Part shown: positions 95 through 13,831 of the stretch, one piece after another
Layout of the letters: each line of letters starts with the position of its first letter
Numbering within the stretch: the first letter of the stretch is position 1
Origin: Candidatus Cloacimonadota bacterium
GTDB taxonomy: Bacteria; Cloacimonadota; Cloacimonadia; Cloacimonadales; Cloacimonadaceae
Length of the DNA stretch: 13,831 nt
Direction of reading: 5' to 3'
NCBI GenBank assembly: GCA_028681035.1
Contig: JAQUJJ010000097.1
Span: 1-13,831, forward strand
Position numbers and translations under genes: made by a program
Notes under the pieces: generated by a model
Database searches by the model: none
Told to the model about the DNA's origin: nothing
Seen by the model: only the letters and a program-made list of their open reading frames with translations

Positions 95-640
95 TTATAC
101 TCCCGGAGGGATATCCTTGAGCAGGAATATCTTGTTGGAGGTCACTCCAGAGAACTCGGTGGAGATGACTACGTTGAAGAGACCATCAGCCTCTCCCGAC
201 CAGTCAACTGTCCAGCGTAGCCCGGTGAAGATCACCACCCGATCCAGTTCCTTGGAAGCCACTACGATGGTGGTATCCTTGCTCATGAACAGGGTGCTTT
301 CCAGGAAGTTCTTCTGCTTGGTGGATAGTCCGGAGATGTTGAGTTCGACCGTACTGGTGCGCTTGCCGGGGATGGTATAGTTGCGGGTCTTGAGCTTGGA
401 CAGCTTAGAGTCCGTCTTACCGGGTTTCTCGGCCAGTTCACCAAGCAGGTCGAAGTTAGTGGTAAGCTCCGTTTTAACCGAAGCCTGACTGGCATACAAT
501 GTCCCGATGGAAGTGGCATCATAGGTGCCGATCCCGAAATAGACGAGATCGGCAATCAGCACGTCCATCAGCTGATTGAAAGCCAGATCAGCTTCGGTCA
601 TATTGGAGGGATAAGTGGGCTGTGAGATGGGATTGGGCAT
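95..640 (-). CDS. putative phage tail-tube-like structural protein
   Basis: This 181-residue protein has no signal peptide or membrane segment. After a short N-terminal region (residues 1-60), the remainder is rich in alternating beta-type segments: the stretch around RNYTIPGKRTSTVELNISGL (about residues 86-105) and the C-terminal stretch running from TIVVASKELDRVVIF to VVISTEFSGV. Such patterns suit a beta-sandwich tail-tube or similar virion protein, and the position after capsid genes agrees. I do not recognise a specific family, so this is inference from size, context and secondary-structure pattern. Its ATG overlaps the stop of the upstream membrane-protein gene in a TGATG, indicating translational coupling. 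A head decoration protein is the main alternative. Confidence 0.5.
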   Translation of the reverse strand: MPNPISQPTYPSNMTEADLAFNQLMDVLIADLVYFGIGTYDATSIGTLYASQASVKTELTTNFDLLGELAEKPGKTDSKLSKLKTRNYTIPGKRTSTVELNISGLSTKQKNFLESTLFMSKDTTIVVASKELDRVVIFTGLRWTVDWSGEADGLFNVVISTEFSGVTSNKIFLLKDIPPGV

Positions 641-1015: not shown

Positions 1016-2746
1016 TTAGGTGGTGAGTTTGAACACTTTCACGAAGCCCGAAATATAGGTGATGCCGGGCCGGATACGGATGTACCAGTGGTACTTCCAA
1101 TCGCTTCCGTGGTGTTCTACTTTGAGTTCGGCATCAGTGCGATAGCCGACGATGATGAACTTGGGTAGACCGCCGATGATGTAATCGGCATCCATGAGAC
1201 GGGGCTTGACCGGGATACCCGCAAAGGATACGTTGCCGCCTTCTAACAGCAGACGATCTCCGGCTCCGGTCTCACGCTTGGCGAGTTCGGCCCGGATGCG
1301 GATCAGATCCTTGTGAGCCACGTAGAACTTGAAGTTCTCCTGCTCTTCCAGCATCTCATCGGAGAAAGCCAGCAGAGCGGCTTCAAAGCGCTTCGCCCAG
1401 TCGGTGTAGGTGGTCTTGGAGAGGTTGGTGACATCAGTGGCGGTGGTAGCCAGTTTGACCACACCATCCAGAGCCTTGATCTTGGCAGTGGCAGAGGCTC
1501 TATCACCTTTGAAGAGAAGCAAGCGAATAGCTTTCTCGGTCTTCTTGGCGATGTGGTTCTCCACATAGGCTCCAAAGGCATCTTCACCGTACTTGTCCTT
1601 GTAGAACTCGACCACATCACGTCCCAAGGTGAACTCGGCATTGAGTATCCCGGTAGGGACGGAGAGATCGGCAGTCGAGACGTTCTGAGCCGTCAGAGCG
1701 CCATCCAGGGAGTTCTTGAAGACCAGATCATCGATCAGGCCGACGTCGATCTTCTCGTCTTTCAGCAGGGGCAAAACCGAGATATCGGAGAGGGTATCAC
1801 CCGGTTGGCTGCCGATCACTTCATCGATGAAGAGGCTGGTAGTATTGGCCGAGAGGATGTTCATGGCCTTGCCGGAGTCCACGTCGGAGATGCCTTTGTA
1901 GATCTCACGATGAGCAGCCTTGACCATGATCTTGTTGCCGTCGATGGTAACCTCTTTGTCCACATTGGACTGGTTAGCATCAGGTTCTCCGGGAATCGAT
2001 TTCGAGATGGCTCTACTCATGGTGACGGAAAGGTCTTTGAGGCTCTTCTCGATGCTGTGGATGGCATCGCCCAGCTGAAGATTCGGATTACCCTTCTCCA
2101 GTTCATTGATCTTTTCAGTGATGGCGGTAATGCCTTTCTGCAGCTCGGAGTTGTTGTTATGCTCCGCTACCTTGCGAAGCGAATTGAGCTCGTTCTTGAT
2201 CTCGGTAAGGCTGGCTTCCGCGTTGCGGTAGTCATCAGCTCGTCCGTAGATCGAGACACCATTGAACTCACCTTTCTCAACCTTCTGCCAGAGATCAGAG
2301 TTGAGATCTTCACACTTGAGGACTTGCACCCAAGAGCCAACTTTAGCATCGGGAAAATGCTCTCTGTCACTGGTCTTGAGGATGTAGTTCTCGACTACGG
2401 TAAACTCCGGTACGGGTTGCATGTTGTGATTCACATCGCACTTGCCCACAAGGCCATGCTTGGCGAAGTGATCGCAGGACTTCTGAATCTCTTCCCGGGT
2501 GTAATAGTCACCTTGGGAATCGTGGATATTGGGTTCCATTAGAGTGACGTAAAGCCGTCCCTGAGTGCCACTCGTTTCACTCTTGAACTTGGTCGAGTTG
2601 ATCTTGTGTTCGAAGCTTCTACCGGAAGCATTCTTGACCACAAAGCCCTTCTGATTGGCGGGAGTCATCTCATCGAATAGAAGCGAGACAAGCTCGACTT
2701 CCACGTTGCGAAGCTCTCCCTTGAGAATGGTGCGTTTACGATTCAC
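1016..2746 (-). CDS. prohead protease - scaffold - major capsid fusion protein
   Basis: One 576-residue polypeptide appears to carry three head-morphogenesis functions. Residues 1 to about 173 match the XkdF-type prohead serine protease (Peptidase_S78_2): a candidate catalytic His107 in DVNHN, a GSWVQVLK core strand, and a candidate nucleophile Ser165 in the FNGVSIYGRA motif. Residues about 175-250 are charged and heptad-like (SLTEIKNELNSLRK, then ITEKINELEKG), as expected of a scaffold/delta segment. Residues about 270-576 read as an HK97-fold major capsid protein, with an N-arm-like start, a long spine-helix-like stretch (FGAYVENHIAKKTEKAIRLL) and beta-rich C-terminal strands. I chose the GTG at 2746 because a perfect AAGGAGGT precedes it. 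An ATG at 2788, 3 bases after the portal stop, lacks a Shine-Dalgarno but would add 14 residues. The frame is uninterrupted. The protease would presumably cut itself and the scaffold away from the capsid part during maturation (inference). Confidence 0.88.
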   Translation of the reverse strand: MNRKRTILKGELRNVEVELVSLLFDEMTPANQKGFVVKNASGRSFEHKINSTKFKSETSGTQGRLYVTLMEPNIHDSQGDYYTREEIQKSCDHFAKHGLVGKCDVNHNMQPVPEFTVVENYILKTSDREHFPDAKVGSWVQVLKCEDLNSDLWQKVEKGEFNGVSIYGRADDYRNAEASLTEIKNELNSLRKVAEHNNNSELQKGITAITEKINELEKGNPNLQLGDAIHSIEKSLKDLSVTMSRAISKSIPGEPDANQSNVDKEVTIDGNKIMVKAAHREIYKGISDVDSGKAMNILSANTTSLFIDEVIGSQPGDTLSDISVLPLLKDEKIDVGLIDDLVFKNSLDGALTAQNVSTADLSVPTGILNAEFTLGRDVVEFYKDKYGEDAFGAYVENHIAKKTEKAIRLLLFKGDRASATAKIKALDGVVKLATTATDVTNLSKTTYTDWAKRFEAALLAFSDEMLEEQENFKFYVAHKDLIRIRAELAKRETGAGDRLLLEGGNVSFAGIPVKPRLMDADYIIGGLPKFIIVGYRTDAELKVEHHGSDWKYHWYIRIRPGITYISGFVKVFKLTT

Positions 2747-2755
2747 GCTACCTCC
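2747..2755 (-). promoter_or_regulatory. strong Shine-Dalgarno deciding the GTG start of the capsid fusion gene
   Basis: On the minus strand, AAGGAGGT precedes the GTG at 2746 by about 3-4 bases. The in-frame ATG at 2788 has only CTTTGGGTCTTAAACT upstream, with no purine-rich site. The ribosome-binding evidence therefore favours the GTG, despite the weaker codon and the slightly short spacing. Confidence 0.6.
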
Positions 2756-2791
2756 TTGTTGTTGATTGTCAGTTATGTAGTTGTACATAGT

Positions 2792-3985
2792 TTAAGACCC
2801 AAAGTTTCTGTTCTGCATGAAGAGCTGTTCATCAGCAGTCTGCAGCACCTCGGTCAGATCTCCGAAGTTGAAATCCTCCGGCTTTACGTTCCAGTCGAAG
2901 TCGAAGTTAAACTCGTTTGCCAGGGCTAAGGCGAGGCGATTCTGCAGCGGTCTGACCACGAACTGGTAAAACATCCGCATATCGCTGCTGTTATCGCCAC
3001 CAAGCTGCCCAGGAATGAGTTGTGAGACGATCCTGGCGGGTACCCTGTGATAGGCGAGGATACCTTCCCTGAGGTCTTTCTTGAGCCCTAAGAAGCCCCC
3101 TTCCCGGTCTTGCTGACGGAGGGGTTCAAGACGTATCTTCACGTCCCGGCTTTCACTCTCGATCAGGACTGTAGAGTGGCTCTTGGCATTGCCTTTGACC
3201 TCTGTAAGTGCCTTCTCGATTTCGGTATAGGCATCGGTCAGCACTTCATTACCCTGCTCATCGGTGACTGTTCCGTCTCTGAGCGTACCGCCTTCCACGA
3301 TCACGAAGTAGTCGATCATCAGGCCGTTCTTGAAGTTGTTGTAGTCGAAGGTCTTGATCTCGCCCAAGATCTCGATGTTGATGGCGATGGGCAAGCAAGC
3401 CAGGCCCCAGGCATTTGATCTATGGGTGGACTTCTTAACGTGGATGATGTCCTCGTAGGCAAAGTCTTTCTTCTGGTTATTTTTGACTTGGATGTAGTTC
3501 GGCTTGAAGAAGCCGAACTCGTCATAGTTCTCCACGATCTGCACTTCAGATGGCAGCATCCTCTCCAATCCCATCCACTGGCCTTGGGCGTTCCTCATCT
3601 TGATCAGGAAACCATTACCACAGGCCAGATAGAACTTCATCAGTTCCGCCAGGATGGTGGTCTGATCTTCACAGGCAGGGAACTCGGCGGCTTCCATCCA
3701 TGCTTTTACCTGGCTGTTCTTGCAGTCAAACTGCATGATGGTCGCCATTGTCAGTGCATCGATACAGCCTGAGTGGTACTCATCGGTATCCAGGAGATTA
3801 AGCAGATTGCTCATCGAGTAGGGCTGAGAAACCACTTTCTTGGTCTCGGAAGCCTTGGATACCAACTGCTTACCGATCCGCTGATACTTGGATAGATCAA
3901 TGGATTCCGGCTTGTACTTGCTCTCCAGGAGATCAGATGCGGAGCTGATAGCCAGGTTATAGGCACCGAGTCGCATTACTCTCAT
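2792..3985 (-). CDS. phage portal protein, PBSX family
   Basis: This 397-residue protein would form the dodecameric ring at one capsid vertex through which DNA is packaged and to which the tail attaches. Portal signatures of the PBSX/P2 type run in order: the segment around DTDEYHSGCIDALTMATIM (about 66-84); the stem-region GNGFLIKMRN (123-132); the DIIHVKKSTHRSNAWGLACLP block (179-199); the NNFKNG motif (216-221); the clip/stem stretch ending in AYHRVPARIV (311-320); and QFVVRPLQNRLALALANEFN (341-360). The C-terminus ends soon after, at MQNRNFGS, so the extended C-terminal tail seen in some relatives is short or absent. The start is well supported: ATGA overlaps the upstream stop, with AGGAG 7 bases away. 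The directly downstream gene is the protease-capsid fusion, the classic portal neighbour. Confidence 0.9.
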   Translation of the reverse strand: MRVMRLGAYNLAISSASDLLESKYKPESIDLSKYQRIGKQLVSKASETKKVVSQPYSMSNLLNLLDTDEYHSGCIDALTMATIMQFDCKNSQVKAWMEAAEFPACEDQTTILAELMKFYLACGNGFLIKMRNAQGQWMGLERMLPSEVQIVENYDEFGFFKPNYIQVKNNQKKDFAYEDIIHVKKSTHRSNAWGLACLPIAINIEILGEIKTFDYNNFKNGLMIDYFVIVEGGTLRDGTVTDEQGNEVLTDAYTEIEKALTEVKGNAKSHSTVLIESESRDVKIRLEPLRQQDREGGFLGLKKDLREGILAYHRVPARIVSQLIPGQLGGDNSSDMRMFYQFVVRPLQNRLALALANEFNFDFDWNVKPEDFNFGDLTEVLQTADEQLFMQNRNFGS

Positions 3986-6025: not shown

Positions 6026-6322
6026 ATGAAAGTGATAAGTAAAGACGTCCTTGACCGCTTCATTAAAAAACATAGCGAAATGAAAAATGCTGTTCTAACA
6101 TGGAAGGAAGTTGTACAAGGACAATCATGGGAAACACCCCATAATGTCAAAGAAACGTTTCCAAAAGCTAGTCACATTGGAAATTGTGATTGGTGGTTTG
6201 ATTTAAACTATGGCGGATATCGTTTATTAGCTAAGGTAAACTTCAATATGAAAGCTGTTATGGTCATTTCAGTTAATACTCATGATGAGTATTTAAGAAT
6301 CAGTAACAAAAGAAAATCGTAG
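6026..6322 (+). CDS. higB: HigB-family type II toxin (mRNA endonuclease)
   Basis: A 98-residue RelE-superfamily toxin of the HigB_toxin type, expected to cleave mRNA and stop growth when its antitoxin is lost. Family features are the N-terminal MKVISKDVLDRFIKKH, Trp26 and Trp35 flanking the WKEVVQGQSW helix-turn, the PKASHIGN block (46-53), the central strand GYRLLAKVNF with conserved Arg66, and the C-terminal THDEYLRI with His86 and Tyr89 as likely active-site residues. The usual length is about 95-105, so it appears complete. The toxin gene precedes the antitoxin, the normal order for higBA. It ends 16 bases before the antitoxin start. No clear Shine-Dalgarno is present at the start, and the promoter places the message start near the ATG. 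Base composition is A+T-rich, unlike the phage genes to the left. Confidence 0.9.
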   Translation: MKVISKDVLDRFIKKHSEMKNAVLTWKEVVQGQSWETPHNVKETFPKASHIGNCDWWFDLNYGGYRLLAKVNFNMKAVMVISVNTHDEYLRISNKRKS

Positions 6323-6338
6323 CGCCAAGGAGATTAAA

Positions 6339-7580
6339 ATGAGCTTTGATTTAAAAGTCATTAAAAGTGCTAAAGATTATCATATCGCTACTGAAAAATT
6401 GTCGATATTGATGGATCATAACCCTAATGTCGGCAGTAAAGAATACAAACTTATGGAGTTACTGATAGTTTTGATTGAAAAATATGAGGACGAGAAATTC
6501 GACTTAGGAACCTTAGATCCTATAGAAGCAGTAAAAATTCGAATGGGAGAAAAAGGATTGAAACAAAGGGATTTAGTTTCATATATCGGTAGCCCAGTTA
6601 AGGTCTCCGAAGTACTAAATCGTAAACGAAATCTAACATTTGAAATGATGAAATCACTTAGTGAGGTCTTAGATATCCCTGCAGAAGTGTTTTTCAGATA
6701 TAAGACAAATTCGATGCCTTCTACCACTTCAACGTTGGAGAATAGAATCCCTCTAAAAGAGATTGTCGGGAAGCATTGGCTACCTTATGCAAGCAGCATT
6801 GGTGGAGTAGCAAAAAAATCAAAAGAGCTATTGAGTAACTTTTTTTCAAATAAGGTTTTCTATGACTTTGCTTTCTCTAATGGTACAACTTATAAAAGAC
6901 AACTCATACGAAAAGGATCTAACATCGATGAAGTTTCTCTTGCTACGTGGATTTATATGGTTTTAGAGTTAGCTTCAAATGTCAGAACTCCAAAATCTTA
7001 TAGCAAATCGATGCTGACCGATGAAGCAATTGCTACAATTAGAAACTACAGCAATAGATGTGACGGTCCCTTGTTGGTGAGAGATTATCTACTGAGCTTA
7101 GGCATAATACTAGTGATTCTACCGCATCTAAAGAAAACGCATATAGACGGCGCAGCAATGATGATGCCAAACAAAAGAAATCCAATTATTGCCCTCACTC
7201 TAAGACATGATCGTGTTGATAATTTCTGGTTCTGTCTATTCCATGAGTTGGGGCATATCTTGCACCATTTAAGTAGCAATATGATAATAGCTGAAAATCT
7301 CGATGTAATTGATGATGATGACAATAACGAAAGAGAAGCAGATGCTTTTGCCAGAAACAAACTAATTCCAGAAGATAGTTGGAATGCTTTTTATATGAAC
7401 GGACTGGGGAATTTTTCGCCAGAGTCTGTAGAGAGATATGCACGAAATATTGGTATTAATCCTGCAATTGTTGCTGGGAGGATTCGATACCAAACCCAAC
7501 GTTGGATGATTCTATCAAGAATGGTAGGTCATCACGAGATTAGAAAAGTATATGGAAACGAGTATTACTCACTAGCATAA
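6339..7580 (+). CDS. higA: HigA-like antitoxin fused to ImmA/IrrE metallopeptidase
   Basis: This 413-residue protein has two recognisable parts. Residues 1 to about 122 resemble HigA antitoxins of the COG5499 type: an N-terminal helical segment (KDYHIATEKLSILMDHNP) and an Xre-like helix-turn-helix (about 61-120, including GLKQRDLVSYIGSPVKVSEVLNRKRNLT). Residues about 230-350 form an ImmA/IrrE-type peptidase with the zinc motif HELGH (His302, Glu303, His306) and the downstream EREADAFA, where Glu333 is the likely third ligand. All key residues are intact. The middle (125-230) and the tail (350-413) match nothing I recognise. ImmA-type proteases cleave Xre repressors during mobile-element induction, so the domain might degrade or process the antitoxin half, or another regulator, after a stress or phage signal (inference). 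The start is supported by AAGGAG 6-7 bases upstream. It presumably neutralises HigB and autoregulates the operon. Confidence 0.9.
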   Translation: MSFDLKVIKSAKDYHIATEKLSILMDHNPNVGSKEYKLMELLIVLIEKYEDEKFDLGTLDPIEAVKIRMGEKGLKQRDLVSYIGSPVKVSEVLNRKRNLTFEMMKSLSEVLDIPAEVFFRYKTNSMPSTTSTLENRIPLKEIVGKHWLPYASSIGGVAKKSKELLSNFFSNKVFYDFAFSNGTTYKRQLIRKGSNIDEVSLATWIYMVLELASNVRTPKSYSKSMLTDEAIATIRNYSNRCDGPLLVRDYLLSLGIILVILPHLKKTHIDGAAMMMPNKRNPIIALTLRHDRVDNFWFCLFHELGHILHHLSSNMIIAENLDVIDDDDNNEREADAFARNKLIPEDSWNAFYMNGLGNFSPESVERYARNIGINPAIVAGRIRYQTQRWMILSRMVGHHEIRKVYGNEYYSLA

Positions 7581-7588
7581 AAAAGAAA

Positions 7589-7616
7589 TCGACAGGAAGT
7601 TACATCCCCCTGTCGA
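7589..7616 (-). terminator. hairpin with T-run when read leftward
   Basis: TCGACAGG (7589-7596) and CCTGTCGA (7609-7616) form a perfect 8-bp stem with a 12-base loop. On the minus strand the stem is followed by TTTCTTTTTTATG, a convincing intrinsic terminator shape. On the plus strand no T-run follows, so it would at best slow rightward transcription from the antitoxin gene, which ends 9 bases before it. No leftward gene is evident just to its right. Confidence 0.5.
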
Positions 7617-7746
7617 CATGGAAATCGGCATTTCCTTTCAGCGAGGCCAATGATATGATTTCCTTGTTTGCCGTCAAGTTCTTTGTGATTTGGCAGCTTC
7701 GACTGGGAAACTTTCTGCGAAATAAAAAAAGCAAAGGAGGTAGTCA
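7617..7746 (+). other. gene-free spacer with a small hairpin and a strong ribosome-binding site
   Basis: No convincing gene is present. A perfect 6-bp hairpin, GGAAAT-CGGC-ATTTCC (7620-7635), is followed by TTT and could act as a weak rightward terminator. The spacer ends in AAAGGAGGT about 6 bases before the next ATG (7747). I see no good -35/-10 pair, so the next genes may depend partly on read-through or on an unrecognised promoter here. Confidence 0.4.
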
Positions 7747-7971
7747 ATGAGAAAGACTACCCATGTGGTTCCGGCACCAAATGGTGGCTGGAATGTAAAA
7801 CAAGGAGGTGGCCAAAGAGCTTCAGGTCATCATCCAACGCAGAAAGAAGCTATTGAACAAGCCCGAGAATTAAGTCTGAAACAACATTCTGAGCTCGTTA
7901 TCCATGGTCGTGATGGACGTATCAGGGAATGTGATAGTCACGGCAAAGACCCATACCCACCAAAGGGATAA
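7747..7971 (+). CDS. DUF2188 family protein
   Basis: This 74-residue protein closely follows the DUF2188 pattern: KTTHVVPAPNGGWNVKQGG, ERAS-like QRASGHHPTQKEAIEQARELS, then ELVIHGRDGRIRECDS ending in DPYPPKG. The family is small, soluble and of unknown function, probably a compact alpha/beta fold; members are often scattered near accessory genes. The ATG has a near-perfect AAAGGAGGT, suggesting strong translation. Its stop is followed after 2 bases by the ATG of the next small gene, and both precede a strong terminator, so they look like a two-gene unit. Nothing here reveals a biochemical activity. Confidence 0.85.
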   Translation: MRKTTHVVPAPNGGWNVKQGGGQRASGHHPTQKEAIEQARELSLKQHSELVIHGRDGRIRECDSHGKDPYPPKG

Positions 7972-7973
7972 GC

Positions 7974-8300
7974 ATGTTAAAAGTTGAACTTAAAGGTGCT
8001 GATTCAATTGTAAAAAAACTGGATTCGATTGCTCGAAAAGCAGAACAATTGAATGGTGAACACAGTGTACCGATAAACGACCTTTTTACGGCGCAATTCA
8101 TGCGATCTAATACACGCTTCTCAAGCATCAACGAGATGTTAGAGGCTGGTGGATTTAATATTGATTCACAAGCAGATCTGAAGGAAGTCCCTAATGATGA
8201 CCTCGATTGCTTAGTAAGAAAAGAAACTGATTTCAATAATTGGGATGAAATGCTTCATGCTGCATCCGAGCAGTGGATAAGCAAGCAATTGGGATTCTAA
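7974..8300 (+). CDS. unrecognised 108-aa protein paired with DUF2188
   Basis: I do not assign a named family. The protein is acidic and soluble, with three visible parts: a beta-then-helix N-terminus (MLKVELKGADSIVKKLDSIARKAEQL), a conserved-looking centre (VPINDLFTAQFMRSNTRFSSINEMLEAGGF, about 32-61) and a C-terminal segment with alternating acidic and aromatic residues (FNNWDEMLHAASEQWISKQLGF, about 87-108). The stretches SSINEMLEA and NNWDEMLHAA look like two copies of one short helical motif, which may point to an internal repeat. No catalytic motif or membrane segment is seen. It starts 2 bases after the DUF2188 stop, so the two are probably co-translated. It lies between a toxin-antitoxin unit and a restriction system. 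Confidence 0.75.
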   Translation: MLKVELKGADSIVKKLDSIARKAEQLNGEHSVPINDLFTAQFMRSNTRFSSINEMLEAGGFNIDSQADLKEVPNDDLDCLVRKETDFNNWDEMLHAASEQWISKQLGF

Positions 8301-8304
8301 ACTC

Positions 8305-8335
8305 AAGCTGCGGGGGATGTAATCCCCCGCAGCTT
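8305..8335 (+). terminator. strong intrinsic-type terminator hairpin
   Basis: AAGCTGCGGGGGAT (8305-8318) pairs perfectly with ATCCCCCGCAGCTT (8322-8335) across a 3-base loop, giving a 14-bp G+C-rich stem that starts 5 bases after the 108-aa gene. The tail after it (ATTATATTAG) is A/T-rich but not a clean T-run. It separates the small-protein unit from the restriction operon, which must therefore have its own promoter in 8336-8389. The best pair I see there, TTAGTT and TTATAT with an 18-base gap, is weak. Confidence 0.75.
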
Positions 8336-8389
8336 ATTATATTAGTTATCTCATACATATTAACATTATATTAAGAAGTTGGGAAGCGG

Positions 8390-10429
8390 ATGTTATCAAA
8401 ACAAGCACTAGGCAACATACTCTGGGGGATGGCCGACATCCTAAGAGATAAAGTTGAGGATTACAAGGCATATATCCTCTCACTACTCTTTTTTAAACGT
8501 CTTTCGGACAACTACCTATGGGAAAATGAAAACGGGATTAAAGAGTTCATTCGGCAGTATGGTACTGAACCCAATGAAAAGCAGAGACAGAAGATAATCC
8601 GTGAGAGGCATGATTTTATAATTCCGCCTGAATGCTTTTGGAAAGATGTTAAAGAATCGCAAATTGACAAGAAAAACGAAACGCTAAATCATGCAGTTGT
8701 CACAATCTCTGACACAAACCCAATTTTAAAAGGCATTATAAACACCGTGCGTTGGAATGAGCCAGCACCAGATGGCTCTGGAGGCAAGAAACTGCAGCCA
8801 GATGTTCTTAGTTCTCTAATAAACTACCTTGATCCTGTAGACCTAAGTAATCGCAATGCCTCAGTAGACATATTGGGTGATGCTTATGAATACCTTATTA
8901 AACGTTTTGCAGACGAAAACAAAGGTGGTACAACAGCTGGGCAGTTTTATACTCCTCAGGAAGTTGTTGATATAATAGTGCGTTATTTAAAACCTCAAAA
9001 AGGCAATCAGCTCTATGATCCCACCTGTGGATCAGGCGGATTTCTCATTAATGCTGCCAAATATGTAAAAAGCGAGACTGGTTCTGCTAAAAACATTCGG
9101 CTTTGTGGCCAGGAAAATGTTTGGAATACTTGGGCAATAGCCAATATTAATATGATCTTGCATGGGTTAGATGCTCAAATCAAGCAGGGCGATACAATCT
9201 TAGAACCTAAGTTTCTGGAAGAGGACAATGAACTGCATATTAGAACATTTGACTTAGTTATGGCTAATTTCCCTTTCTCTCAGGAAAACTGGTGGAAAAA
9301 TGGTAAGCCTAAAACTGACAATAAAGGCAAGGCTGTTCTAAAGAAAGATGGCTCACCTCAGCTCGAATATCCTGACAAGTCAACATTCAATGATCCTTAT
9401 GAACGTTTCATCTATGGCATACCTCCTTTTTCTAATGGGGATTTCACGTTTTTACAGCATATAATTGCCTCGCTTGATGATATTGGTAAGGCGGGGGTTG
9501 TTTGTCCCCAAGGTGTACTATTTCGTGGGCAACCAGAAAAAAATGAGGAAGAGGACGGACAAAATCGCAAAGCAGATGACGAGTATTTGATTCGGCGAGG
9601 ATTTCTTCAGGGTATAGCAAACAGCGCGGGTGAATTCAATAAGGGTATTGATATCATTGACGCTATAGTTGTATTACCTCCCAACCTGTTCTATGGCACC
9701 ACTATACCAGGATCAATCATATTCTTTAACAAACAAAAACCTGAGGATCGAAAAGGTAAGGTCCTAATGGTTAATGCTGCTAAAGAAGGATGGTACAAAG
9801 AATCAGCAAATATGAACACCCTATTACCTCCCGATATTCTGAGAATATCAACTATGTTGGAATCATGGGGAGATCTTGATAAGGCGAAGATATGGATTGA
9901 TTCGCAAAAACAAAGACTTATGAATCTAATCCAGGATGATTTGGATTTCAAACTGAACGAAATCGAACTGGATACTGCAGAAGATCTTCAAATACAGGAA
10001 CAAAAGACTACAAAAACCCAGGAATTGGTTCAGGTGAAAACTGAAGCTGGTAAGAAACCAACGAAGACTGAGCTTACCACTCTTGAAAAAGCGCAGGAAA
10101 AACTAACTATGCTACTGGATAAGAAACAGCAGAGAATCAATGATGCAGAAGTATTTGCTGAACATGAACGATTAGCTATATCTCAGGTGGAAATTGAGCT
10201 TATTGATATGCTCAATGATCCCGAAAAGCGCAGAAAGTATTTCTCGGTAGTCGATATGGAAGAGATAGAGGAAAACGAGTTTAATCTCAATCTGCCACGT
10301 TATGTTGATACATTTGAACCTGAGGAAGAAATCGATCTGAAAACGGCTATTCAGGGCTTTAAAGATTGTCTAGCGAAAGAGGATGAACAAATAAAGTCTC
10401 TCATAGATCTGCTGGAGATTATTCAGTGA
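8390..10429 (+). CDS. hsdM: type I restriction-modification DNA methyltransferase subunit
   Basis: HsdM transfers a methyl group from S-adenosylmethionine to adenine N6 in the site chosen by HsdS, protecting host DNA. The N-terminal helical HsdM domain runs about 1-150 (ILWGMADILRDKVEDYKAYILSLLFFKRLSD). The methylase core begins with GQFYTP (184-189), followed by the cofactor-binding DPTCGSGGFL (210-219) and the catalytic motif IV as NFPF (293-296), where NPPF is more usual. The characteristic C-terminal stretch, with FSVVDMEEIEENEFNLNLPRYV spread over about 618-639, is present. At 679 residues it is longer than the roughly 500-540 of the best-known HsdM proteins. The extra length is a Lys/Glu-rich, probably coiled-coil segment (about 500-600). 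Its stop overlaps the hsdS start. The start is preceded by a modest GGGAAG. Confidence 0.97.
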   Translation: MLSKQALGNILWGMADILRDKVEDYKAYILSLLFFKRLSDNYLWENENGIKEFIRQYGTEPNEKQRQKIIRERHDFIIPPECFWKDVKESQIDKKNETLNHAVVTISDTNPILKGIINTVRWNEPAPDGSGGKKLQPDVLSSLINYLDPVDLSNRNASVDILGDAYEYLIKRFADENKGGTTAGQFYTPQEVVDIIVRYLKPQKGNQLYDPTCGSGGFLINAAKYVKSETGSAKNIRLCGQENVWNTWAIANINMILHGLDAQIKQGDTILEPKFLEEDNELHIRTFDLVMANFPFSQENWWKNGKPKTDNKGKAVLKKDGSPQLEYPDKSTFNDPYERFIYGIPPFSNGDFTFLQHIIASLDDIGKAGVVCPQGVLFRGQPEKNEEEDGQNRKADDEYLIRRGFLQGIANSAGEFNKGIDIIDAIVVLPPNLFYGTTIPGSIIFFNKQKPEDRKGKVLMVNAAKEGWYKESANMNTLLPPDILRISTMLESWGDLDKAKIWIDSQKQRLMNLIQDDLDFKLNEIELDTAEDLQIQEQKTTKTQELVQVKTEAGKKPTKTELTTLEKAQEKLTMLLDKKQQRINDAEVFAEHERLAISQVEIELIDMLNDPEKRRKYFSVVDMEEIEENEFNLNLPRYVDTFEPEEEIDLKTAIQGFKDCLAKEDEQIKSLIDLLEIIQ

Positions 10430-11634
10430 GTGAGTGGAAAGAGTTAAGACTAAAGCAAATAGTTGAAATAATGGGAGATGGTGGAACCCCATCTACTTTG
10501 ATTGATGGTCATTTTAATGGTTGTATCCCATGGGTTGTTATTGGTGACATAAAATCTGAAATTTACGATACAAAAGATAAGCTCACTGAAAGTGGCTTTC
10601 GCTCATGTTCTGCAAAATTATGGGATGCAGAAACAATAATCCTATCTACTGGAGCAACTATTGGATTAGTTGGTATAGCCAAAGTTCCTTTGTGTACTAA
10701 GCAAGGAATTACGGGAATTGTAGTCAACGAGCATGCATATAATATGTTTATTAAGTACTGGTTTGAATACCATACAAATTTACTTCTCAGATATGCTCAA
10801 GGCACGACTTTCAAAGAAATCCGAACTAGACCATTAGGAAATCTACGGATACAAATACCAGCCCCATTTTCGATTGATGGTTTATCAGAACAAATCGCTA
10901 TAGCGTGCTTAGTTAAAAAAACAGATATAGCCATAGATGCTATTGAAGCAAGTACACTAGCTTTAGAAAGAGTTAAGATTGCATTTGAACAGAACCTCAT
11001 GACGGGGAAACTTAAACCAGATGGGTTATATAGAGAGGAAGAGGAGTTTGTAGTAGATGCAAAAATCGGTAAGGTACCTAAGGATTGGTCTGTTGGGAAG
11101 TTTAAGCAACTTGCAGTTCTGCAAAGGGGAAAAGATCTTACTGATAATGAAGTTATCCCCGGCGATTATCCAGTAGTTAAGTCTAATGGAGTCCAAATAT
11201 ATCATAATGAGTATTTTGTAAAAGCTCCGGGAGTAATCACGGGTAGGTCAGGTACTATTGGTAAGGTCTTTTACATTGAAACAGATTTCTGGGCTCACAA
11301 TACAAGCTTGTATATAAAGGATTTTAAAGATAATTGCCCAAAATTCATATATTATTTGATTAACAGAATGAAGTTTGAACAGCATCATGCTGGTACGACA
11401 GTACCAACGCTGAACAGAAATGATGTTCACAAAGTTCGTATAGCATACCCGAGCCCTGAAGTGCAAGAGCAGATCGTAAGCATTTTGGACATGTTTGAAT
11501 TATCATTACGTGATAAGACACTCAAAATGGCTGAGTTAAGAAGACTAAAACAAGCGCTTTTACAGAATCTGATAACTGGTAAGATGCAGTTATCTAATAA
11601 ACAAATCTCGGTAATAAATAAGTCTAGGCCCTAA
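10426..11634 (+). CDS. hsdS: type I restriction-modification specificity subunit
   Basis: HsdS reads the bipartite DNA target and bridges the two HsdM and two HsdR subunits. Its 402 residues show the expected duplicated plan: target-recognition domain 1 (about 1-150, with GDGGTPST and WVVIGDI), a first conserved helical spacer (about 152-200) ending FEQNLMTGKLKPDG, target-recognition domain 2 (about 215-345, with GKVPKDWSVGKFKQL and ITGRSGTIGK), and a second conserved helix (about 346-390) ending LLQNLITGKMQLS. The repeated NL(M/I)TGK motif (190-195 and 380-385) marks the two spacer helices. Translation starts at a GTG that overlaps the hsdM stop as GTGA, with GGAG 8 bases upstream. The recognition sequence cannot be read from the protein; the two halves differ, so the target should be asymmetric. 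Confidence 0.96.
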   Translation: MSEWKELRLKQIVEIMGDGGTPSTLIDGHFNGCIPWVVIGDIKSEIYDTKDKLTESGFRSCSAKLWDAETIILSTGATIGLVGIAKVPLCTKQGITGIVVNEHAYNMFIKYWFEYHTNLLLRYAQGTTFKEIRTRPLGNLRIQIPAPFSIDGLSEQIAIACLVKKTDIAIDAIEASTLALERVKIAFEQNLMTGKLKPDGLYREEEEFVVDAKIGKVPKDWSVGKFKQLAVLQRGKDLTDNEVIPGDYPVVKSNGVQIYHNEYFVKAPGVITGRSGTIGKVFYIETDFWAHNTSLYIKDFKDNCPKFIYYLINRMKFEQHHAGTTVPTLNRNDVHKVRIAYPSPEVQEQIVSILDMFELSLRDKTLKMAELRRLKQALLQNLITGKMQLSNKQISVINKSRP

Positions 11635-11655
11635 CAGTGTTATTGTGAGGTTGAT

Positions 11656-13831
11656 ATGAATACATTATCTGAGTTAAATGTAGTTGAAAAACCAGTGGCT
11701 GATTGGTTGAGCAAAATGGGATGGGTGAGCCAAAGCAGTGATGATCTAAAAGTGTATAAACGCCCATTATCCAGTTCTATCATTATGCCCATTTTAGTTA
11801 ATAAAGTTGCTGAACTGAATTCAATTCCAATTTCTGTTGCCGAGCAAGCTGTTGAGTTGTTAATCCATGATTTGCGAAATCCGAGTCCAATCTTGGGGAA
11901 TGAGAGTTTTCTGGATAAACTGGCTAAATGTGTCACAATAACTATAGATAAAGAAGACAGAGATATACATTTTATTGATTTTAATCACATCTGGCAAAAC
12001 AGCTTTATTGTAACCAATCAATATATGGTACAAGGCTTTAAAATAGTAAAACCTGATATAGTTTTGCTTGTAAATGGTATTCCTTTAGTGTGTGTTGAAG
12101 CAAAGCAATGTGCCAGAAAAGGCACTAACTGGCTTGAAGGAGTGAAACAGTTTTCCACCTATGAACAGAGATCAGACAAGCTTTTCATGAGTAATCTCTT
12201 TGGGGTAGCATGTAATGGGAGAATAGCCAAGTTTGGCATTCCAGGAGCATCAGCATCATATTTTAATGAGTGGAAAGATGACTCCTTGGATAACTCAGCA
12301 TCTAATCCAATACTTGATCCTACAAATGACTTATGCGGTAGTCGTCTTGATGCTACTGATGGACTTCAGCATTTTGAGGTAGGGAGATATCCTAATGGTG
12401 AAGTGATGGAAAGGATGAAGTTGGGAATAGTTGGGTTATTACAGCCTGCGAGAATCTTAGACATACTTAAGAACTTCATCGTGTTCGAACGAACCGAAGG
12501 TAAAGTAATCAAAAAGGTATCCAGATACCAGCAACTAAGAGCAGCAAATAAAATAGTAAGCCGAGTCATAGAATCAAATCAAAAAAAAGGTGTTATCTGG
12601 CATACACAGGGTTCAGGTAAAAGCCTAACAATGCTTTATACTGCGTACAAGCTCTGCCATGCGCCAGAATTAAAAGACCCCACTGTATATATCGTGGTAG
12701 ATAGGAAAGACTTAAGAGAACAGATAGGTGGCACATTTGAAGATTGCATATTTCCTAACGCTCGCCCGGTCTATAATATTGGTGATCTTAAACAGATAAT
12801 CTCAAGAGCTCCTTCAGGAGTTTTTATTACTACTATCCAGAAATTTGCTGAACTCGGTGATAGGATTGACCTTCGTGATAATGTTATTGTATTGATAGAT
12901 GAAGCACACCGAACTCAATATGGGGATTTTCACACCGAATTAATGAGTGTTTTGCCCAACGCACGCAAATTTGCGTTTACGGGCACTCCAATCCCTAAAA
13001 CATACCAAGTATTCGGTGAGAAGAAACAGGAGCATTTTGAGCACTATTTGGATAGGTATAGCATCAAAGACTCTATCGATGATGGTGCTACTGTCCCAAT
13101 ACGTTACACTTATGGACCTCAAAGGTTTTTTCTCGATAAAGAGAAGCTTAAACAAGGCTATGAAGAGATAACTCAAGATTTGGAAGAGGATCAAAAACGC
13201 TTAGTTGAGAAGAGAGCCCAACCTTGGAAGGTTTTCTTGAAACACCCGGAGAGGGTAGCTGTATTGGCTTCTGATATTGCAAATGACTTCAGAGAAATCG
13301 TTGAACCTCAGGGATTCAAGGTTCAGATTGTGGCTTGTGACAAAGAAGCTTGCGTCCTTTACTATAATGAGTTACTAAAGTACTTCGACCATTCTGAAAT
13401 GACAATCATTTTCTCTACTGGGCAGTATGATGATAGTGATAAATACGATCTTTTCAGCCCCCACTATAAAGAGGACACAGAACGTAAAAGACTTATATCT
13501 CAATTTAAAAGGAGAATAACTCCTGAAGAACACCGTAATGGTAACAACCTCAAGTTGTTAATAGTATGCAATATGCTTCTTACCGGCTTTGACGCTCCGA
13601 TTGAACAAACAATGTATTTAGACAGCCCATTACGTGACCATAACCTTTTACAAGCAGTTGCCAGAACAAACAGACCTTACGATGACCCGATATCAAAACT
13701 CTCTAAAGCGTTCGGGCGCATTGTTGATTACATTGGGATTTTTGAGAATTATCGAGATGCCTTGAATTATGAACCTGAAGATATAGGCGAGTTTGAGGAT
13801 GTTGACAGCCTTGTCCTTCAATTCCCAGATG
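11656..13831 (+). CDS. hsdR: type I restriction enzyme R (translocase/nuclease) subunit, 3' truncated by window
   Basis: The frame stays open for 725 codons from the ATG at 11656 to the window end. GAGGT lies 6 bases before the start. HsdR translocates DNA using ATP and cuts unmethylated DNA at a distance. Visible motifs are the PD-(D/E)xK-type nuclease site in PDIVLLVNGIPLVCVEAKQ (Asp134, Glu148, Lys150); Walker A GSGKS (319-323, Lys322); DEAH box (415-418); helicase motif III TGTP (442-445); MLLTGFDAP (motif V) near residue 640; and motif VI QAVARTNR (666-673, arginine finger Arg670/Arg673). Family members are usually about 1,000 residues, so roughly a quarter to a third, the C-terminal helical domain that contacts HsdM/HsdS, lies beyond the edge. 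The gap from hsdS is 21 bases, consistent with one operon in the order M-S-R. No frameshift or stop is seen. Confidence 0.97.
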   Translation, partial: MNTLSELNVVEKPVADWLSKMGWVSQSSDDLKVYKRPLSSSIIMPILVNKVAELNSIPISVAEQAVELLIHDLRNPSPILGNESFLDKLAKCVTITIDKEDRDIHFIDFNHIWQNSFIVTNQYMVQGFKIVKPDIVLLVNGIPLVCVEAKQCARKGTNWLEGVKQFSTYEQRSDKLFMSNLFGVACNGRIAKFGIPGASASYFNEWKDDSLDNSASNPILDPTNDLCGSRLDATDGLQHFEVGRYPNGEVMERMKLGIVGLLQPARILDILKNFIVFERTEGKVIKKVSRYQQLRAANKIVSRVIESNQKKGVIWHTQGSGKSLTMLYTAYKLCHAPELKDPTVYIVVDRKDLREQIGGTFEDCIFPNARPVYNIGDLKQIISRAPSGVFITTIQKFAELGDRIDLRDNVIVLIDEAHRTQYGDFHTELMSVLPNARKFAFTGTPIPKTYQVFGEKKQEHFEHYLDRYSIKDSIDDGATVPIRYTYGPQRFFLDKEKLKQGYEEITQDLEEDQKRLVEKRAQPWKVFLKHPERVAVLASDIANDFREIVEPQGFKVQIVACDKEACVLYYNELLKYFDHSEMTIIFSTGQYDDSDKYDLFSPHYKEDTERKRLISQFKRRITPEEHRNGNNLKLLIVCNMLLTGFDAPIEQTMYLDSPLRDHNLLQAVARTNRPYDDPISKLSKAFGRIVDYIGIFENYRDALNYEPEDIGEFEDVDSLVLQFPD

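Follow-up and report, generated by a model that had tools for sequence, protein, structure and literature searches.

Can a single phage gene supply the maturation protease, the scaffold and the shell protein of a capsid, and how would such a precursor mature? This question is raised by a 13,831-nucleotide stretch of Candidatus Cloacimonadota DNA (contig JAQUJJ010000097.1 of assembly GCA_028681035.1; hereafter called the window). From the letters alone, an initial annotation had assigned one uninterrupted frame at 1016..2746 to a fusion of prohead protease, scaffold and major capsid protein. We confirmed this frame and placed it on the minus strand (2746..1016, stop codon at 1016-1018), the annotation having given no strand; the plus strand across the same interval is interrupted by stops. 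We conclude that the gene encodes a real and conserved protease-scaffold-capsid polypeptide, the scaffold part being recognized by its predicted helices.

A protease, a predicted helical segment and a capsid domain in one frame

The start was placed at GTG 2746 and not at an alternative in-frame ATG at 2788, which would yield a protein of 590 amino acids (14 more), because AGGAGG is located at 2756-2751. A 5' start with such a Shine-Dalgarno (SD)-like motif was present in 58 of 58 sequences. The first half of the protein matched the XkdF-type protease family PF14550 in Pfam (E 9.1e-36; 123.1 bits, against a gathering cut-off of 24) and the head maturation protease family phrog_3017 in PHROGs (E 1e-23). 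The candidate catalytic residues His107 and Ser165, already singled out by the initial annotation, were invariant in an alignment of 58 rows picked for diversity and again in one that includes three distantly related, unfused XkdF proteins. HK97 gp4 and herpes assemblin were not among the matches listed in a structure search with the protease domain, a result that leaves room for kinship, and a sequence search of the PDB with the window protein gave no match at E<=1.

An HK97 capsid fold was found in the second half, which matched the virion structural family phrog_1623 in PHROGs (E 7.4e-17). Members of this family are annotated as major capsid protein, and both RcTiptonus 33 and the capsid protein of Dulem virus 37 match it. 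The window protein had no match to PF05065 (Phage_capsid) at 0.1. Thus, the XkdF-type protease and the HK97-like capsid region proposed from the letters were both borne out. As a side observation, the Dulem virus 37 capsid protein (L059 5276-6376) carries an insertion relative to the other aligned rows, which overlaps a CBM_5_12 match (E 3.9e-6).

The two domains are joined by a variable segment, with a mean information of 2.24 bits at residues 174-243 compared with 3.29 bits at 1-173 and 3.56 bits at 265-576. A structure model predicted helices at residues 176-197, 200-218 and 225-250. In the best of seven registers, 64% of the a/d positions of the charged segment 176-250 were hydrophobic, against 33% overall, figures that carry no chance comparison; with this proviso, the heptad-like charged segment of the initial annotation was recovered. 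Matches of the scaffold part to serine-tRNA ligase and spanin were far below their cut-offs, look like coiled-coil matches and were rejected. An NCBIfam scan of the window protein gave three weak matches, none of them at its cut-off.

The fusion is conserved in related phages

The frame was free of stops in 57 of 57 related loci, which are not all independent. L045 and L046, whose contigs end within the match, were excluded from this set, while L024 and L040, cut near the capsid end, were counted. This rules out a sequencing error or frameshift joining two adjacent genes, the objection that the initial annotation had raised against itself. Furthermore, at least 222 homologues were detected at 1e-5, and all 120 among the matches listed carried PF14550 and were of fusion size (522-597 amino acids), so that an assembly artefact, or a stop codon lost in a single genome, is of negligible probability.

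A search with the capsid part gave 181 matches, and five of the 120 listed were without a precomputed PF14550 assignment (P0121, P0122, P0125, P0126 and P0134). Two of the five are marked partial, P0122 and P0134 begin inside the protein, and P0126 is full length with both His and Ser present. P0134 (399 amino acids, on an 8,966-base contig) and P0122 (492 amino acids) could reflect truncation, a contig or start-call artefact, or loss of part or all of the protease domain.

Viral contigs contributed 46 loci, 44 of which span both parts. Species genomes contributed 11: for ten the record title is Cloacimonetes or Cloacimonadota, and the eleventh comes from a Spirochaetales metagenome-assembled genome. 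This last locus (L048) is a 96% identical fusion on a 5.4-kb contig, and its label could result from misbinning or point to a wider host range. Genome G009 contains two copies, with 7-9% divergence across the pieces that could be aligned.

The database search for the same domain fusion that the initial annotation had suggested was run, including a survey of 124 genomes from the phylum to which G006 belongs (G006, titled Candidatus Cloacimonadota, is the source of L057). It revealed the XkdF/phrog_1623 fusion in relatives and 18 such frames in the phylum. PF14550 was found in 13 genomes at 23 places, 18 of them within frames of 583-619 amino acids; phrog_1623 was found in 12 genomes at 22 places, 18 in the same frames as PF14550 and four in separate frames of 298-370 amino acids. 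The G018 assembly harbors seven PF14550 places, six within fusions and one outside; either fused and unfused prophages coexist in it or the bin is mixed.

All nine phage records searched contained a single phrog_1623 match, located inside a frame of 580-619 amino acids. No separate capsid gene was found elsewhere with phrog_1623 in these nine records or with PF05065 in five phage records; the records may be fragments. These data agree with the annotated arrangement of protease, scaffold-like helix and HK97 capsid in one polypeptide.

A conserved, disordered island is the candidate cleavage region

The initial annotation had proposed a cut at about residues 245-275. This region includes the motif RAISKSIPGEP (residues 245-255), which holds the most conserved nine-residue window between the domains (174-262) and in which Glu254 is invariant; a variable, gappy stretch follows. 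The predicted local distance difference test (pLDDT) score was below 50 at residues 244-259, which predicts disorder. Since the island is conserved yet predicted to be disordered, like a protease recognition site, we infer that it is the best candidate cleavage site.

The start of separate capsid proteins aligned near residue 268 in one alignment, while a profile comparison begins at about residue 294, so the junction is placed only approximately. The tails of separate XkdF proteins were also compared with the linker after the island. The best score was reached by 4 of 300 shuffles for L114, 11 for Dulem virus 37, 19 for L109, 76 for L108, 131 for L111 and 289 for RcTiptonus. This weak likeness is a lead only, and suggests that the protease gene may be the source of part of the linker.

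Unfused versions of the same two genes

In two prophage stretches of the phylum (L108 and L109), an XkdF gene of 224-226 codons is followed after 12 and 9 bases, respectively, by a phrog_1623 capsid gene. On the viral contig L114 the two genes are arranged likewise and lie 9 bases apart; its capsid open reading frame (ORF) was located by eye through its resemblance to the L109 one. In L109 and L114, GGAGG lies directly ahead of the capsid ATG, while the window fusion has no such SD. Of the five shorter PF14550 frames in the phylum, those of L108 and L109 have a phrog_1623 neighbor, the neighbor of L111 matches at only E 0.0069, L110 contains unread bases, and the G060 frame comprises 66 amino acids.

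RcTiptonus 31/33, Dulem virus 37 and L108/L109 share with the window the protease and capsid families and their order, the two being adjacent or one gene apart, but they have two genes where the window has one, and the L109 capsid gene has its own SD. Otagovirus (phiPsa315) was rejected as a further unfused example, since its capsid protein is Phage_cap_E and not phrog_1623. The fusion probably arose through stop loss between adjacent xkdF and capsid genes.

Relation to published fusions and to separate prohead proteases

In presenting two or three genes as the normal state, the initial annotation overstated its case, as such fusions are not new. According to the available parts of the papers cited here and below, fused protease-capsid genes are known from the Arthrobacter phages Circum (gp12) and Maggie (gp7) and a Rhodococcus phage (PMC5513430) and from the Rhodobacter RcC cluster (PMC8601537); as in the window, one gene provides capsid subunit and maturation protease, the latter of a type that these passages do not name. 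In the thaumarchaeal proviruses Nvie-Pro1 and NCAV2-Pro1, a protease domain is fused to the capsid protein as well, but it is described as chymotrypsin-like or "typical caudoviral prohead" and, in the part available, not as XkdF-type (PMC6563490). Searched at 1e-5, the window protein gave 70 matches, none of them to an Arthrobacter or Rhodococcus record; four were Rhodobacter records, including RcTiptonus, RcKickapoo and RcDurkin.

NCBIfam, too, contains curated models for such proteins (NF045540, scaf_prot_MCP1, 652 positions; NF045541, scaf_prot_MCP2, 634 positions). By name, they combine scaffold, protease and capsid in one polypeptide as here, but the window protein differs in that its protease is XkdF-type. 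Neither was detected in the two relatives' phage records scanned, and both were absent from the matches of the window protein at E<=1. In scans of 14 control genomes, one model gave some match in 12 and the other in 4. In the open-access literature searched, titles and abstract starts announced neither a fusion of XkdF with a capsid protein nor a Mu-like phage of Cloacimonadota. As far as searched, then, the XkdF/phrog_1623 pairing, the host phylum and the Mu-like background are new, while the kind of fusion is already known.

HK97 gp5 resembles the window protein in combining the HK97 fold with an N-terminal scaffold extension, the delta domain. However, the HK97 protease gp4 is encoded by a separate gene and is present at about 60 per 415 subunits (PMC12749128). 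The T4 prohead protease gp21 is likewise a separate protein, for which about 55 or about 100 copies in each prohead are given (PMC9958956, PMC5694885), and the D3 protease is present at about 90 per prohead (PMC12749128).

Internal starts and stoichiometry

Codons 171-300 were scanned for internal starts preceded, at a distance of 5-16 bases, by an SD motif of at least 4 bases. Such pairs were found in 12 of 58 sequences, at scattered codons, while the other 46, the window included, had none. In L032, L035, L036, L037 and L040, AGGAG precedes an in-frame start at codon 238-242, and L056 has AGGAG ahead of codon 267 and GGAGG ahead of codon 300. These starts near the island or the capsid start (ATG, GTG or TTG) could be a codon coincidence, with Lys-Glu-Leu in the five, or real. 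Given the 46 sequences, synthesis of the three functions at 1:1:1, as the initial annotation had put forward, is the simplest reading, and each capsid subunit probably carries its own protease.

A proposed maturation pathway and its alternatives

We favor, with moderate confidence, the view that the fusion is a major capsid precursor with a built-in XkdF protease and scaffold, which is cut after assembly near residues 245-255. We infer the protease activity, its timing, the cleavage site and cleavage in trans, and propose the following course. Translation would begin at the single start GTG 2746, and every procapsid subunit of the main lineage would contribute a protease and a scaffold segment to the shell interior. 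The protease domains, for which T4 gp21 looks like the nearest counterpart, would become active after assembly and cut the precursor near the island, at best guess after Glu254 and most likely between neighboring subunits. The cut would free protease and scaffold (28.7 kDa) and leave a capsid subunit of about 35.6 kDa. By our estimate, a T=7 interior with an assumed radius of 19-20 nm would be filled to roughly 43-50% by 415 N-terminal parts of 28.7 kDa, and a D3-sized T=9 prohead (assumed 5-nm wall; D3 diameter from PMC12749128) to about 30% by 535 such parts. One protease per subunit would thus be crowded but possible. That every subunit has its own gp21-like protease, hundreds within a procapsid, with none packaged separately and with coordinated cleavage between neighbors, is a proposal whose chances we judge to be even.

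Several points weigh against this pathway. Only the His and Ser candidates among the catalytic residues were placed in the sequence, the third not, and T4 gp21 was a weak Foldseek match of the protease domain (E 0.021). T4-type cleavage follows the rule (I/L)xE, to which the island does not conform exactly; its usual form is I/L/V-x-G-E, with exceptions such as L039. The island may bind the shell instead of being cut. P0134 starts within the scaffold part. The phage records may be fragments and so leave room for a second capsid gene, and the 12 sequences with internal start and SD suggest that some relatives could make extra, protease-free capsid protein.

Among the alternatives, a shell-binding scaffold peptide at 245-255, with the cut located elsewhere (175-245 or 255-296), is possible, though unlikely. 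The scaffold of phage D3 clamps the inner capsid surface (PMC12749128), and a segment loosely resembling the stretch beside the island occurs in the tails of some separate XkdF proteins (L114 and L108, with the shuffle counts given above); this reading is opposed by the combination of highest conservation within 174-262 and predicted disorder, as is expected for a protease recognition site. Rather improbable is that the gene gives two products, the full-length fusion and a capsid-only protein from an internal start, with the protease a minority as in HK97 and T4. Mu gene I/Z and lambda C/Nu3 are models for two products from one gene. The AGGAG of the five loci and the two pairs of L056 would fit, as does the ratio of about 60 to 415 in HK97 (PMC12749128), but most sequences, including the window, lack internal start-SD pairs, ATG243, common in the main clade, has no SD, and the AGGAG may stem from the conserved Lys-Glu-Leu codons. 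The unfused capsid genes of L109 and L114, by contrast, do have their GGAGG. About as improbable, in our view, is an early cut in cis, made shortly after synthesis while the subunits are still unassembled, so that the fusion would behave like two equally made genes. This would agree with the disorder of the site region in the model and with the unfused versions in related phages. It conflicts, however, with the activity of prohead proteases, which is held back until procapsid closure, and it would remove the only scaffold candidate recognized beside the capsid, although the two ORFs downstream have no assigned function.

Genomic context

The genes around the fusion are listed in Table 1. The relative record G001 contains the same gene set together with a large terminase, a Mu gpF-like protein and a tape measure, and also a Mu-type transposase (phrog_310, E 1.4e-84; Mu-transpos_C) and a MuB-like DNA transposition protein (phrog_296, E 1.4e-21). 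Because G001 pairs this gene set with MuA/MuB-type genes, the window most likely belongs to a Cloacimonadota phage or prophage of the Mu-like kind; these transposition genes were seen in G001 only, the window not spanning that region.

Defence cargo occupies positions 6026-13831, beside a lysozyme gene. The corresponding stretch upstream of the head genes in L075, L079, L083, L086, L090, L102 and L065 carries differing defence genes: a GajB/UvrD-like helicase, a type III methylase, a type I M-S fusion, type I and type III restriction enzymes, a type IIG enzyme and another type I system. PADLOC matched six of ten proteins in one scan and, in another, two of four from L065 and L081; at 1e-5 it gave no match for L066 (two proteins), L077 (1472 amino acids), L071 and L081 (two proteins). 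The region has the look of a hotspot for defence cargo in these Mu-like phages.

Table 1. Features of the window, by position
Feature	Position	Strand	Basis or remark
ORF, 181 amino acids, no family match	95..640	-	Same-length ORF with similar sequence start in L105, 8275-8820
Small ORF downstream of the fusion, 116 amino acids	640..990	-	Same-length ORF with similar sequence start in L105, 8820-9170
Fusion of XkdF protease, scaffold helix and HK97 major capsid protein	1016..2746	-	576 amino acids, GTG start; Pfam and PHROGs matches
HK97-fold major capsid domain (phrog_1623), residues 265-576	1019..1954	-	Fold and profile match
RAISKSIPGEP island, residues 245-255; candidate region for maturation cleavage	1982..2014	-	Conservation and predicted disorder
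Variable, predicted helical scaffold-like segment, residues 174-244	2015..2227	-	Predicted helices, low information
XkdF-type protease domain (PF14550, Peptidase_S78_2)	2228..2746	-	Residues 1-173
Candidate catalytic Ser165	2252..2254	-	Invariant in both alignments
Candidate catalytic His107	2426..2428	-	Invariant in both alignments
SD AGGAGG of the fusion gene	2751..2756	-	Four bases ahead of GTG 2746
Portal protein, directly upstream	2792..3985	-	PF04860, E 1e-14
PD-Lambda-2-like gene, small flanking ORFs	6339-7580		PADLOC PD-Lambda-2_B, E 1.5e-116
Type I restriction-modification system, hsdM	8390-10429
Type I restriction-modification system, hsdS	10426-11634
Type I restriction-modification system, hsdR	from 11656 past window end

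Implications

The listed homologues are named only "XkdF-like putative serine protease domain-containing protein" or "hypothetical protein". Since these names omit the capsid function, surveys of major capsid proteins could miss these phages. That one phylum contains these two families both fused and separate provides a natural before/after comparison. Well-studied phages recruit the protease as a minority component, and a natural 1:1 fusion removes this recruitment; it raises the questions of how the enzyme stays off until the shell is complete, how the roughly 30-50% of the interior that we estimate to be filled is cleared, and whether cleavage occurs in cis or in trans. If every subunit does carry its own protease, the control point of maturation would be shell geometry, i.e., procapsid closure, and not protease recruitment.
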